Assembly (NCBI GenBank): GCA_021107945.1
Contig: JAIORV010000157.1
Span: forward strand, 78,774-142,773
DNA: 64,000 nt
Reading direction: 5' to 3'
Origin: Vulcanimicrobiota bacterium
Lineage (GTDB): Bacteria; Vulcanimicrobiota; JAJTBE01
Positions 16,246 through 22,167 of this stretch are shown piece by piece. The position numbers and the translations under genes were made by a program. Each line of letters starts with the position of its first letter. Positions within the stretch are counted from its first letter, which is position 1. The notes below the pieces were generated by a model, which worked only from the letters and a program-made list of their open reading frames with translations, was not told the DNA's origin and did not search any database.

Positions 16246-19200
16246 ATGATATGTCCCGATTGTGGTCAAAATAATAGCGACAGAGCGACTTTCTGCGTCA
16301 TCTGCGGCGCTCAGCTTGCAGGCGGTGACAGTGTTTTTGTCGCTCCGGGCAAAGAAAAGGAAGAGCCTCCGGGCATGGCCGCAAAAAGTCTTCGAGATGG
16401 TAGATACTCTATCCTGAAAGTGCTTGGCGAGGGAGGAATGGGAAGAGTATATCTCTCGAAAGACACAAAGATGGATTATCTTATCGTCATCAAGGAAATG
16501 CTTCCTTATTTTATGTCACCCGCCGAGAAAGAATACATCGAGAAAAGGTTCAAGGAAGAGGCAAAGCTATTATTCCGCCTGGATTTCCACGGTCTGCCGA
16601 AAGTTATAGATTTTTTCTCCGACAGGAGCAATCTGTATATTGTAATGCAATTTGTCGAGGGAGATAACCTGCAGGTAATTGCTGATAAACGCCCCGACAG
16701 CAGGATTTCAATTGACGAATGTCTTGTCTGGATGGATGAAATGTTGGATATCGTAGGCTATCTCCACAATCAGAATCCTCCTATCATCCACAGGGATATC
16801 AAACCTAAAAATATTATGCTCAATAATCGCGGGGAGATCTACCTTGTTGACTTCGGGCTTGCAAGAACAATTGGAATGCATACAAAAACAGGTACATCAG
16901 TCGGAACATACGGATACTCCTCACCGGAGCATTACTCGGGTAAGTTTGAATTATCCTCCGACATTTTCAGTATCGGCGCAACATTCCACCACTTGCTGTC
17001 TGGAGACGACCCACAGGGCAGAGATACGTTCGATTATCCTCCTCTGAAGAAATATATTAAAGATTTTCCGCAAAAACTGCAGGATATATTCGATAAAATG
17101 CTGGCAATGAGAAAAAGTCAGCGTTTCCAGAGAGTTGAATTTGTACGACAGGCGCTGGATATATTCATCAAAGAATACAGACTTCAACAGCAGGTGAAAC
17201 CTACCGGGATTCCACAAAAGGCAATTGAGCAATTAAAACTTGTGTCCCAGAGTGTTGTTACTCCTGAGAATATTGTCATACCTGAAGTAAAGTCCCCGGA
17301 AGTTTCAAGAATTGTTCAAAAAGCCGACAACAAACAATCTCCTCCTGAAATATCGCCGCCTGCTTCTCCACCATTGGAAATTGGAATGAAAAAGCAAGTT
17401 CCATCGGAAAAAGTGGAGAAAAAATTTGTTGTTAAGCAAGAAAAAGATTCCGTGAAACCCGATAAAAAACAGGCTGACAAAAAACCTTCACATGCCGCCA
17501 TGCAGGAAAAGCTCACAAAGCTTACCCACCCGATTAAACATAAAACATCGGAAGAACTGATCGGAAAAAGTGAAGAAAAGCAAAAAGTTCCCCCATCTCT
17601 AGGTAAATCCGAAACTTATGTAAAACTCGAAATTCCCTCAAAAGCTCGGGAAGAGAAGCCGTCAAAGAAACCTGAAGAAAAGCCGGGCAGGAAACCCGAA
17701 GATTTCAAGGTAAAACCCACAACAATAAGACCCTCAGGGATTACCGTGCAGGAAACCGATGACGACAGTCCCCTGGTAATTACTATTGAAGATGAAAGCA
17801 AGAAAGAAAGAATAAATAACAGGGAAACCGAGAAAGAGATTGACAAGTTTTCACTGGGGTTCTTAGATAAAGAGGATGGCGATACTCCGCCTGTGCCGAT
17901 ACCGGAGGAGCAGGCTGAACAGGTGATGAGCTTCTTAAAGGATATAGAAAACGGGATCACGCAGGATAAGAAAGACGCAGTACCGCCTGAGCAGACTAAA
18001 GTATTTAAAATTGAAAAATCCCCGGAATCAAAGATTCAGGAACCACGGGAGAAAAAGCTGCCGGAATTAAAAATTCATGAGCCGGAAAAGGATAAATTAC
18101 CGGAACAGATTTTGGAAAAAGCTGAAGAAAAATCAGACAAAGAGACGATCAAATCCATACCAGGTAAAAAAGATAAAAAGCCCATCCCTGCAGCTATTAA
18201 GCCGGCAGTGAAGAAATCGTCGAAACCGGAAGAAAAGAAACCGCCGGTCAAAAAGCCTGTGGAGCAAAAAGCAGTTGTGAAACCGGTAGTGAAGAAACCA
18301 TTGGAACCGGAAGAAAAAAAGCTGCCGGTCAAAAAGCCTGTGGAGCAAAAAGAGAAGAATAAAGTTGAGTCTCCCCGGAAAAAGTCTGCCCCGATAAAGC
18401 AGAAGGCAGTCAAACCTCCCGTGATAAAACCGGAAGTAAGCAAGCTTCCTGTAGTGGAGCCGAAAGTAATAAAGCCGCCGGTCAAAAAGCCTGTGGAGAA
18501 AAAGGAGAAGAAAAAAGTTGAGCCTCCCCGGGTAAAATCAGATGCCCGAAAAAAGCCTGCCCCGATAAAGCGAGAGGCTGCCAAACCTGTTACAAAAGTT
18601 TCTAAAAAATTCCCTGTAATACCTGTTGTAATAATAGCGATAATAGCTTTGCTGGGAATACTTGCGGTAGTATTCGGGGGTAAGTTTCTCCGCAGGAAAG
18701 CAAGACCTGTTTCATCTCCATTGCCCACGAAAGTGAGACCGACTCCCAAAAAGACGGTGAAGCCCACGAAAAAGCCAGTAATAACGCCTACGAAGCCTGT
18801 TAAACCGCCGGAGGCAAAGCCGGTCAAATTGATAGTCCCCCCTGAATCGGGAGCGGATCAAATTTCAGTAAAAAAGAACGGTGTGGATGTTGCAGTTCTG
18901 TCGGGAGAGGAAACAAAGGAGATAAAGCCCGGCACATACGATATTTATTTTGTCAAGGAGGGGTACGAGCAGATTGAGAAAAAGGATGTTTCAGTCAAAT
19001 CACCGGACGATTTCAAGTCTGTTGTCGTTGGGTTGAAATGGGTAGAGACTCCACCCGAGACGCCTACTATGACTCCTCCTGAAAAAACCGCCCTGGAGGT
19101 TGCCATACCCGCCAAATCGGGAATCAAGAAAATAGAGTTCTTCAAGGCCGGCGAAAAGAAGGCTTCTGCAACATTGGTCGGTGAAAATTCCGGAAGTATT

Positions 19201-19689
19201 GAGCCCGGCACATATATGATCAAATTTTACAAAACCGGTTTTGTCCCGTTGAAAGAGTTTAATGTCAAGATCGAAGATTCAGGCGGTCTGGAAAAAATCG
19301 CCGGCGACCTGTCTTCAAAATGGAAGCCCAGGACAATTTCAATAAGCACCAATATAAAGGCAAAGGTCTATTTGAAGAATGAAGACACGAAAGCGATGAT
19401 TATTAACGGTGATGAGACATCAAAGAACGGAGATCTTTATACAATATCGAAAAATGAAATTGCCGACGGTTCGTATTCTGTGACCGTAAAACCTGTCGCG
19501 TCGGGATGGAGAGACAAGAAATGCAATGTCAGTATTGGTGAATCCATGGACAGGAAAAATATCAAGTTCACACTTGAAAAAATACCGGTAAGTCGGCCCG
19601 CATACACCCCGACAAGATATACTCCCCCGCCAAGGCGCCCGGTAACACGTCCCCCGGTAAAGCCTTATAATCCTGTGGATGGGCACTAG
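16246..19689 (+). CDS. Membrane Ser/Thr protein kinase: N-terminal zinc ribbon, kinase, long K/P/E-rich linker, TM, PEGA-like repeats
   Basis: CPDCGQNNSDRATFCVICG; GEGGMGRVYLS, HRDIKPKNIM, VDFGLAR; linker with repeated PVKKPVEQK/KKPxEPEEKK; TM FPVIPVVIIAIIALLGILAVVFGG; then about three PEGA-like modules. Confidence 0.92.
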   Translation: MICPDCGQNNSDRATFCVICGAQLAGGDSVFVAPGKEKEEPPGMAAKSLRDGRYSILKVLGEGGMGRVYLSKDTKMDYLIVIKEMLPYFMSPAEKEYIEKRFKEEAKLLFRLDFHGLPKVIDFFSDRSNLYIVMQFVEGDNLQVIADKRPDSRISIDECLVWMDEMLDIVGYLHNQNPPIIHRDIKPKNIMLNNRGEIYLVDFGLARTIGMHTKTGTSVGTYGYSSPEHYSGKFELSSDIFSIGATFHHLLSGDDPQGRDTFDYPPLKKYIKDFPQKLQDIFDKMLAMRKSQRFQRVEFVRQALDIFIKEYRLQQQVKPTGIPQKAIEQLKLVSQSVVTPENIVIPEVKSPEVSRIVQKADNKQSPPEISPPASPPLEIGMKKQVPSEKVEKKFVVKQEKDSVKPDKKQADKKPSHAAMQEKLTKLTHPIKHKTSEELIGKSEEKQKVPPSLGKSETYVKLEIPSKAREEKPSKKPEEKPGRKPEDFKVKPTTIRPSGITVQETDDDSPLVITIEDESKKERINNRETEKEIDKFSLGFLDKEDGDTPPVPIPEEQAEQVMSFLKDIENGITQDKKDAVPPEQTKVFKIEKSPESKIQEPREKKLPELKIHEPEKDKLPEQILEKAEEKSDKETIKSIPGKKDKKPIPAAIKPAVKKSSKPEEKKPPVKKPVEQKAVVKPVVKKPLEPEEKKLPVKKPVEQKEKNKVESPRKKSAPIKQKAVKPPVIKPEVSKLPVVEPKVIKPPVKKPVEKKEKKKVEPPRVKSDARKKPAPIKREAAKPVTKVSKKFPVIPVVIIAIIALLGILAVVFGGKFLRRKARPVSSPLPTKVRPTPKKTVKPTKKPVITPTKPVKPPEAKPVKLIVPPESGADQISVKKNGVDVAVLSGEETKEIKPGTYDIYFVKEGYEQIEKKDVSVKSPDDFKSVVVGLKWVETPPETPTMTPPEKTALEVAIPAKSGIKKIEFFKAGEKKASATLVGENSGSIEPGTYMIKFYKTGFVPLKEFNVKIEDSGGLEKIAGDLSSKWKPRTISISTNIKAKVYLKNEDTKAMIINGDETSKNGDLYTISKNEIADGSYSVTVKPVASGWRDKKCNVSIGESMDRKNIKFTLEKIPVSRPAYTPTRYTPPPRRPVTRPPVKPYNPVDGH

Positions 19690-19731
19690 ACCGGTTATAA
19701 AAATTCAGTTTTTTCCAGGAAATATTGTATC

Positions 19732-19783
19732 TTTTGGCTCCCCCCTTCATCCCCCCTCGAAGAGGGGGGAAATCACATCCTCC
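19732..19783. repeat. C-rich direct repeat, left copy
   Basis: TTTTGGCTCCCCCCTTCATCCCCCCTCGAAGAGGGGGGAAATCACATCCTCC; matches 20794-20845 with only a few differences. Confidence 0.85.
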
Positions 19784-20006
19784 ACTACAGGGAATTTTGG
19801 TTGTTCAGAAAATTATCTATATGAGGATTCTGACAAATGAGGACTTTAAAGAATGAGGGTATTGACGAATGGGTGTTTTAGGGGAAACGCAAATACCGGT
19901 TTATACAGGGAATTCACTTTCATCCCATGGCAACAACTCCCAGTCAGATGATGGTAACTCCCTCTCCGCTTGCGGGGAGGGTTGGGGAGGGGTCAATCAG
20001 GGAACA

Positions 20007-20789
20007 ATGAAGGGGCAATTTGGGGTCAGGAAAATTCCTATTCAATTTCTCAGAAAAGGACATCTCATATTTGACAGAAGAAAAAAATTACACAAAGTCA
20101 ACAAGATAGTCCAAAGACATTATAAAGGTCAAATAATCATTATAAATCTTGAAAAATCTTACAACTCTATCATTACTACTCCCACTCACTTGATATTATC
20201 AAGAAGAATTAAGCCTTTAAAAGTCAGGTTTAATTCTGACAAAAGACTAAGAGAAAAAACAAGAAAAAGGGCAAAAGAACTACGAAAAAATCTGACTCAC
20301 ACCGAAAGGCTTCTATGGAATGCGCTTCGCAACAGAAATCTTGGGGTTAAATTCAGACGTCAACATCCGGTAGGTCCTTATATCGCTGATTTCTATTCTC
20401 CTGAAATCGCCCTTGTTATAGAAATTGACGGTGATTCACATTCTATTCCTGGAAGAAGAGATAAAGATATAATAAAAGATAAATTTTTAAAAGATCTCGA
20501 CATTGATGTAATAAGGATTTTTGATTCCGAAATAATAGATAATCTTGATGGCGTAATCTGGAGGATAGATTCGATTATAAAAAAAAGGGGGGAGAGAGTT
20601 AAAAGACTCATCAGATGGTGTGGCGCCAGAAAGCTCAGAACAGGAGACCGGATTATCTCCGGTGAAAAACTCGAAAGTGTAAGAATATCCGGAATAGAAA
20701 ACATGTTTGCGGACGAAGAAGTCTATGATATAGATGTTATTTCTTCTGATTCAATTATCACAGAAGCATGTGTGATTCATGCATTATAG
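20007..20789 (+). CDS. Hint (intein-like) domain interrupted by a DUF559/Vsr-like endonuclease domain
   Basis: Hint N-part ...KVNKIVQRHYKGQIIIINLEKSYNSIITTPTHLILSRRIKP; DUF559 LRKNLTHTERLLWNALRNRNLGVKFRRQHPVGPYIADFYSPEIALVIEIDGDSH...; Hint C-part RWCGARKLRTGDRIIS...EEVYDIDVISSDSIITEACVIHAL. The ORF-track start at 19869 translates repeat DNA; M at 20007 is more likely. Confidence 0.8.
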   Translation: MKGQFGVRKIPIQFLRKGHLIFDRRKKLHKVNKIVQRHYKGQIIIINLEKSYNSIITTPTHLILSRRIKPLKVRFNSDKRLREKTRKRAKELRKNLTHTERLLWNALRNRNLGVKFRRQHPVGPYIADFYSPEIALVIEIDGDSHSIPGRRDKDIIKDKFLKDLDIDVIRIFDSEIIDNLDGVIWRIDSIIKKRGERVKRLIRWCGARKLRTGDRIISGEKLESVRISGIENMFADEEVYDIDVISSDSIITEACVIHAL

Positions 20790-20793
20790 ATTT

Positions 20794-20845
20794 TTTTGGC
20801 TCCCCCCTTCATCCCCCCTCGAAAAGGGGGAAAATTACATCCTCC
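20794..20845. repeat. C-rich direct repeat, right copy
   Basis: TTTTGGCTCCCCCCTTCATCCCCCCTCGAAAAGGGGGAAAATTACATCCTCCT; see left copy at 19732. Confidence 0.85.
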
Positions 20846-20902
20846 TCGCTTGCGTGGGAGATTAAGAGGGGGTAAATTTCGACAGAACCTGATAGAAATA
20901 GC

Positions 20903-21946
20903 TTATATAATCCCCATCCTGATCACCTCTTCCAAAATCTGCACAGCGTTTAACGCCGCTCCCTTTCTGAGGTTGTCCGAAACGACAAACATTTCTATAC
21001 CCCTGTCTGTGGAAATGTCTTCCCTGATCCTTCCCACATAGACAGCATCCTTATGGGCGGACATTGCCGGGTATGGATATATGTTATTAAACGGATCATC
21101 ACAGACCGTAACTCCCGGGGCGTCTTTCAGAATTTCTCTCACCCTGTCCGCCGTAATCTTCTTTTTCGTTTCAATATTGACAGACTCGGCGTGCCCGATT
21201 AGAACCGGAACTCTGACCGTTGTTGCGGTTATTCGCAATGAATCGTCGCCCATAATTTTGCGGGTTTCATATACCATCTTCAGCTCTTCCGTGCTATATC
21301 CGTTTTCCGTGAAACTTCCGATGTGAGGAAGCAGGTTGAAGCCTATTTGGTGGGGATAAACCTCGGCGTTTGTATCTTTACCGTCCAGGACTTCCCTCGT
21401 CTGTTTATTTACTTCCCGGACGGCCGCTTTCCCCGTGCCTGAGACCGCCTGATATGTGGCTACAACCACGCGTTCTATCCCAGCTTCATCATAAACGGGT
21501 TTTAGCGCCACAACCATCTGTATCGTGGAGCAGTTCGGGTTTGCAATTATTCCTTTGTGCAGTTTGATGTCCTCTGGATTCACCTCGGGAACCACAAGAG
21601 GCACATCGGGATCCATGCGGAATGTTTTCGAATTATCGACAACGATCGCGCCGGCCTCAACAAATTTATACGCATATTTTTCACTGGCGATATCACCGCC
21701 GGCAAAGAGAGCGAGCTCCACACCGGCAAAATCGGATTTCTCTATATCCTCAACAACGATTTTTTTATCTCTCACGGGGATCTTTCTTCCCGCTGACCGC
21801 GATGTGGCGAAAAGCCTGAGGTTGTTGACGGGGAAATCTCTTTGCAGAAGCACCTTTAACATTTCTCCGCCGACAAGTCCCGTAGCCCCGACAATTGCAG
21901 TGTTATATTTTTTCATAATTAATCCTCCAGGTAGCGGTTTGTTCAT
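20903..21946 (-). CDS. asd: Aspartate-semialdehyde dehydrogenase
   Basis: AIVGATGLVGGEMLKVL, NPNCSTIQMVVALKP active-site Cys, RVPVLIGHAESVNIE. Predicted start M at 21916 (MKKYNTAIVGATG). Confidence 0.93.
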   Translation of the reverse strand: MNKPLPGGLIMKKYNTAIVGATGLVGGEMLKVLLQRDFPVNNLRLFATSRSAGRKIPVRDKKIVVEDIEKSDFAGVELALFAGGDIASEKYAYKFVEAGAIVVDNSKTFRMDPDVPLVVPEVNPEDIKLHKGIIANPNCSTIQMVVALKPVYDEAGIERVVVATYQAVSGTGKAAVREVNKQTREVLDGKDTNAEVYPHQIGFNLLPHIGSFTENGYSTEELKMVYETRKIMGDDSLRITATTVRVPVLIGHAESVNIETKKKITADRVREILKDAPGVTVCDDPFNNIYPYPAMSAHKDAVYVGRIREDISTDRGIEMFVVSDNLRKGAALNAVQILEEVIRMGII

Positions 21947-22167
21947 CGAATAGTTCGCATAGTTCGCGCATGGTTCGTGTAGTTGTTCGTAAAGTCTGTA
22001 AAGTTCGCAGAGTCTGTCGGCATGGGGTTGGCTCTGCCTGCCCTGAATTTATATCGGGGAATTCGTATCAGTGTTCGCATAGTTCGCAGGGGATAAACGG
22101 AGAAAAACCATTGATACCTCCGTGTTCTCCGTGTCTCCGTGGTGAAAAGCCTCCGTCACCCGTTCGC

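Follow-up and report, generated by a model that had tools for sequence, protein, structure and literature searches.

Within the window, by which we mean the whole 64-kb stretch of DNA analysed, one open reading frame (ORF) encodes a two-segment Hint fold with a DUF559-family endonuclease nested inside it (Table 1). We consider this gene to be, more likely than not, a free-standing selfish nuclease gene that descends from an intein, can no longer splice and resides within a dispersed C-rich repeat unit.

Table 1. The Hint-DUF559 gene of the window, its parts, the repeats around it and its neighbours
Feature	Positions	Strand	Basis or remark
Ser/Thr protein kinase with zinc ribbon, neighbour outside the element	16246-19689	+	PF00069, 5.6e-39
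Left C-rich repeat, core 19732-19783, left end CAGGAAATATTGT	19716-19783	+	direct repeat with 20778-20845; other genomic copies
Hint-DUF559 ORF, 306 aa	19869-20789	+	likely start ATG 19869, alternative start 20007
Block-A-like MGVLGETQIPVYTG (MGVLGETQI), Cys1 position = Gly2	19869-19910	+	by-eye comparison with relatives
In-ORF palindrome CCCTCTCCGCTTGCGGGGAGGG, between block A and next Hint strand	19960-19981	none	
Hint N-part, KIPIQFLRKG... to block B TTPTHLILSRRIKP	20025-20216	+	45.9 bits, relatives' profile; best shuffle 6.8
DUF559 PD-(D/E)xK / Vsr-like nuclease	20256-20573	+	PF04480, 1.1e-25; fold matches; conserved columns
Hint C-part, RWCGARKLRTGDRII ... block F/G VYDIDVISSDSIITEACVIHAL	20613-20786	+	46.0 bits, relatives' profile; best shuffle 8.9
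Right C-rich repeat and following palindrome, end GGGGGTAAATTTCGACAGAACCTG	20792-20897	+	weakly inverted relative to left end
asd, aspartate-semialdehyde dehydrogenase, neighbour outside element	20903-21946	-	named from sequence reading

The nested fold is found by Pfam, Foldseek and flank-specific profiles alike. The Pfam match to DUF559 covers residues 130-235 of the ORF and is enclosed by a match to Intein_splicing (PF14890, residues 71-304, E = 1.3e-4), the latter scoring 22.3 bits, below the curated cut-off of 35.8. Profiles of the two Hint flanks were made from relatives only, with the window ORF left out, so that the flanks were tested separately from the nuclease; their scores compare with maxima over 2000 shuffles (Table 1), the profile columns being biased in that the source alignment had included the window ORF. 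No other reading frame in the window exceeds 9.1 bits with these profiles. Chance resemblance of the flanks to Hint was considered, and is ruled out by the shuffles together with the full-length relatives described below. The preliminary description had recognized, from motifs, a Hint domain interrupted by a whole DUF559 nuclease; with relatives that carry this Hint-DUF559 unit as a true intein in a DNA methyltransferase, the motif reading becomes one of homology. The structural check that it had suggested gives the same picture: AF2 models of moderate confidence (pLDDT 59 and 76) have Hint-type strands both before and after the nuclease. With Foldseek, the modelled protein matches the DUF559 structure 3hrl and the homing endonuclease I-Bth0305I (3r3p) with a probability of 1.00 each, and also several inteins (RadA 4e2u, 1.00 and 0.97; PI-SceI lower), the E-values of the intein matches being modest and none reaching 0.001.

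The nuclease is intact at its motif residues. The PD-(D/E)xK core has its D, E, D and H in invariant columns, and residues E146, D174, E185, D187 and H191, which lie in columns conserved across relatives, are all retained. The EDxHD, or Vsr-like, enzyme I-Bth0305I and the DUF559 protein 3hrl (NGO0050) share the nuclease fold and these motif residues with the window ORF, but unlike it have no Hint domain around the nuclease. The G+C content of 20007-20789 is 35%, versus 43% for the whole window, which is consistent with a foreign origin, though the codon usage of the ORF is not unusual. No RNA element was matched by Rfam over 19600-21000. Upstream of asd, short direct repeats of the type GTTCGCATAGTTCGC are found at 21944-22087.

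The likely start of the gene is the ATG at 19869 and not 20007, the position from which the preliminary description had read it, thereby missing block A. The 46 added codons hold the block-A-like segment and the in-frame palindrome. In block A, a correspondence of about 10 residues aligned by eye, Gly takes the Cys1 position directly after the start Met; an HMM test with this block alone gave no match, the block being too short. Block B retains its TxxH as TPTH, while the block-F His is replaced by Asp. At the C-terminus, the ORF reads IHAL and then stops, so that HN-C has become HAL-stop: the penultimate His is kept, and the terminal His-Asn with a following extein Cys, Ser or Thr is absent. 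Nor is there an in-frame host protein, the ORF standing alone between the kinase gene and asd. The view that this is an extein-free ORF with neither an N-terminal nucleophile nor a terminal His-Asn, and that splicing is unlikely, thus holds on every point. Judged from the alignments, the ORF most likely begins and ends at the former intein boundaries. The retained TPTH and penultimate His might suggest a Hint part that is still catalytic and processes itself by cleavage without ligation, as bacterial intein-like domains do. We regard this as highly improbable, given the replacements at Cys1 and the block-F His, the Ala in place of the terminal Asn and the lack of anything at either end to cleave off.

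Relatives were sought in 85,000 genomes, from which 80 loci were kept, selected by nuclease peptide patterns and not by repeats; three of these match the Hint parts too. The closest full-length relatives are inteins in an N6/N4 DNA methyltransferase of Poribacteria and Hydrogenedentota, at the site DPT/C...HN/CGSGTTAYVAE (slashes mark the intein boundaries), with DUF559 in the endonuclease slot. In Hydrogenedentota, a 1311-aa N6_N4 methyltransferase contains an intact intein, L003 (DPT/CARKGTRV ... CAIHN/CGSGTTAYVAEQWGRRW); Poribacteria have this same intein at that site (L002, L153, L154 and L155). L003, L154 and L155 carry C1, HN and C+1 and are bona fide inteins; in L155 the Hint_2 match begins at residue 1, and the protein is above the intein_Cterm cut-off. 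These three share with the window ORF the order Hint-N, DUF559, Hint-C and full-length homology at 33-35% identity. The DUF559 inteins have exteins, Cys1, HN and Cys+1, whereas the window ORF is without all four. Over the whole methyltransferase inteins dN/dS is 0.09-0.13, and it is low in Hint-N, DUF559 and Hint-C alike, so both the Hint parts and the nuclease are under purifying selection there. The usual host methyltransferase has no match anywhere in the window's genome, which is 98.6% complete.

The Hint linker that holds a palindrome in the window ORF does so in most DUF559 inteins, and palindromes are found there in L003, L154 and L129-L132. Between DPTC and the strand that follows there are 63 bp in L155, where there is no palindrome; with palindromes, this stretch measures 252 bp in L154, 245 bp in L002 and L153, and 363 bp in L003. 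Either palindromes invaded the linker after the intein had formed, or L155 has lost them. In the two Poribacteria with the 245-bp linker (L002:2764-3009 and L153), the two halves of the methyltransferase are thereby in different frames, and the C-half still has a dN/dS of about 0.1; this frame offset may reflect a natural split intein or a programmed frameshift in a G-run.

Hydrogenedentota also have stand-alone Hint-DUF559 genes (L004 and L130-L133), whose likely starts lie from a few to about 20 codons from block A. These versions are mostly splicing-dead: in an alignment by eye, Cys1 is replaced by Gly in L004 and L132 and by Ala in L131, is not clear in L133 and is still present in L130, which terminates exactly at VVRN-stop. 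A further locus, L129, retains Cys1, HN and Cys+1 but is flanked by short coding stretches only (up to about 33 and 16 codons) in the interval from menB to menA, an interval that holds no insert in two close relatives (menB about 90% identical). On its 3' side it continues as CGSGATAAALE, which is similar to the CGSGTTAYVAE of the methyltransferase site and, to go by this likeness, could be extein sequence brought along or a target of similar appearance.

In a tree of 87 DUF559 domains, ten of the 12 Hint-borne nucleases form one clade (97/90), within the Hydrogenedentota part of which free-standing and intein forms are intermixed. The window nuclease and that of L133 are long branches outside this clade, a placement that the tree does not settle. 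Forcing the window nuclease into this clade carries no cost in likelihood (p-AU 0.55), and constraining all 12 together is not rejected (p-AU 0.16), which is compatible with a single origin.

The window copy is solitary. No second Hint-DUF559 copy was found in its own genome and none elsewhere among 149 genomes of its phylum, where DUF559 alone occurs; viral, phage and plasmid collections likewise contain DUF559 but no Hint-DUF559. With a single copy in the genome and phylum set, there is no pair of occupied and empty sites and no dN/dS for the window copy. Elsewhere in the same genome, a second, partial DUF559 match (L102, C12:15668-15808) lies within an open frame of 1750 codons. A single copy that has lost its splicing residues might be a dead relic, an intein copy that landed by ectopic repair, does not splice and is decaying, its open frame a recent accident. 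Some kin do have broken frames: L004 has a stop after block A, and L117, a DUF559 match elsewhere in the window's phylum, has six. We nevertheless find decay an unlikely explanation, since all 306 codons are open, the in-frame palindrome included, the nuclease motif is intact despite the lost splicing residues, and the free-standing copies L130-L133 are also intact.

The direct repeats around the gene (19716-19783 and 20778-20845) are 85% identical over 68 nt and 94% over the 52-nt core, in line with their first characterization as near-identical. At E <= 0.01 the repeat is found at nine places in the window's genome, the window's two included; the other seven lie elsewhere, without a Hint-DUF559 ORF. 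A repeat specific to this ORF was considered and is ruled out by these copies. One of them (L084, C40:17301-17351) interrupts the gene of an MtaB-type methylthiotransferase (UPF0004 and Radical_SAM) without breaking its frame and reads FGSPLHPPSKRGE. On contig C45 (41.6-41.8 kb), a match to window 19947-20028 (85%) is followed, after a gap of about 40 bp, by a match to 20792-20882 (80%), and the stretch between reads KIPVKLLR (compare KIPIQFLR in the window), a remnant of only eight codons. By its sequence, the C45 copy looks as if it had arisen by deletion from a further copy of the element. As it has the left palindrome, a Hint-like remnant and the right repeat but no ORF, the ends and the ORF seem to have moved together. 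A motif, CAGGAAATATT, is common to the left end in the window and, when inverted, the right end on C45 (score 25; shuffle maximum 21), other pairs being weak. Clear terminal inverted repeats were looked for, with weak matches only, and no target-site duplication was seen at the ends of the repeat unit.

The preliminary description had pictured a cassette that moves from one C-rich repeat to another and not into protein genes, and had proposed comparing repeats with and without the ORF. The C45 copy, with ends and no ORF, agrees with this in part. Against it, the kin sit in a methyltransferase gene and most genomic copies of the repeat lie elsewhere. The association with repeats is general for DUF559 genes. 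In 77 loci from many phyla (L005-L081), C-rich hairpins occur at 3.11 per kb within 250 bp of DUF559 versus 0.15 per kb elsewhere, an approximately 20-fold difference. At least one such hairpin is near DUF559 in 57 of the 77 loci and hairpins are on both sides in 35, against maxima of 20 and 5 loci in 500 random placements. DUF559 is moreover found in frame, with C-rich palindromes adjoining, inside a YgiQ-type radical SAM gene (L016) and inside QueA (L072, Rickettsiales), and two genomes of Hydrogenedentota (L134 and L142) have DUF559 with palindromes in frame at the same position of HsdM, a type I methyltransferase.

These observations, the in-frame repeat of the MtaB-type gene and the C45 copy with its two ends and Hint-like remnant are what would be seen if DUF559 were the mobility enzyme of C-rich palindromic units that insert in intergenic and in-frame coding DNA. 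The Hint shell would then be a passenger, the nuclease would act at the palindromic ends, and the short repeats would be non-autonomous derivatives. We regard this, the main alternative, as possible rather than probable: no target-site duplication accompanies the weak terminal inverted repeat signal, 20 of the 77 DUF559 loci have no palindrome nearby, the palindrome-free linker of L155 means that palindromes are separable, and co-location could be passive, for example by palindromes entering safe DNA. In form, the C-rich repeat is like the Rickettsia palindromic elements, and like further short palindromic repeats or MITEs of bacteria, which are dispersed and readable in frame in genes; the window unit differs from them in having a nuclease gene inside.

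The descent from an intein that we favour is supported by the lack of a methyltransferase match in the window's genome, the free-standing kin and the intact nuclease motif. The ancestor was an intein of the DUF559 family, the usual host of which is the N6/N4 DNA methyltransferase; the window copy has lost extein, Cys1 and terminal Asn and is a stand-alone gene. The analysis establishes its identity and nested architecture, its kinship with genuine inteins, the loss of splicing residues and the association with repeats. Its product, we infer, would most likely be a non-splicing, site-specific nuclease, with the Hint part as a scaffold or DNA-binding part. The element may spread through repair of DUF559 cuts in which a chromosome that bears the element serves as template, as for yeast WHO elements, and the C-rich repeat unit may supply it with ends or homology. 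We know of no cleavage by a member of the Hint-DUF559 family.

The closest known parallel is in yeast, where HO and the WHO elements are stand-alone descendants of inteins that have no exteins, do not splice and have lost the C-terminal splicing motif (eLife 2020, PMC7282813). The window ORF is likewise stand-alone and extein-free, with the splicing motif lost. HO and WHO, however, combine a LAGLIDADG nuclease with a C-terminal zinc finger, whereas the window ORF has DUF559 and nothing after Hint-C, and the nucleases are not homologous; for WHO the target gene is known. A DUF559-containing gene is mentioned in the intein section of a report on Thermosynechococcus (PMC9403480). In a literature search of incomplete coverage, we found no paper on free-standing Hint-DUF559 genes or on a link between DUF559 and palindromic repeats.

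The window gene would thus be a bacterial parallel to the step taken by yeast HO and WHO, in which an intein drops splicing and persists as a stand-alone nuclease gene, here with a different nuclease family. As living inteins and splicing-dead free-standing forms are found side by side in Hydrogenedentota, the transition is open to experiment. A broader proposal, which we put forward as speculation and think rather improbable as a whole, is that the free-standing Hint-DUF559 genes make up, in bacteria, a class of mobile elements of intein origin that have abandoned splicing and taken palindromic units as their ends, and that DUF559 generally drives the spread of C-rich palindromes, including copies within genes. 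That C-rich palindromes so closely flank DUF559 genes makes this nuclease a candidate enzyme for widespread short palindromic repeats.
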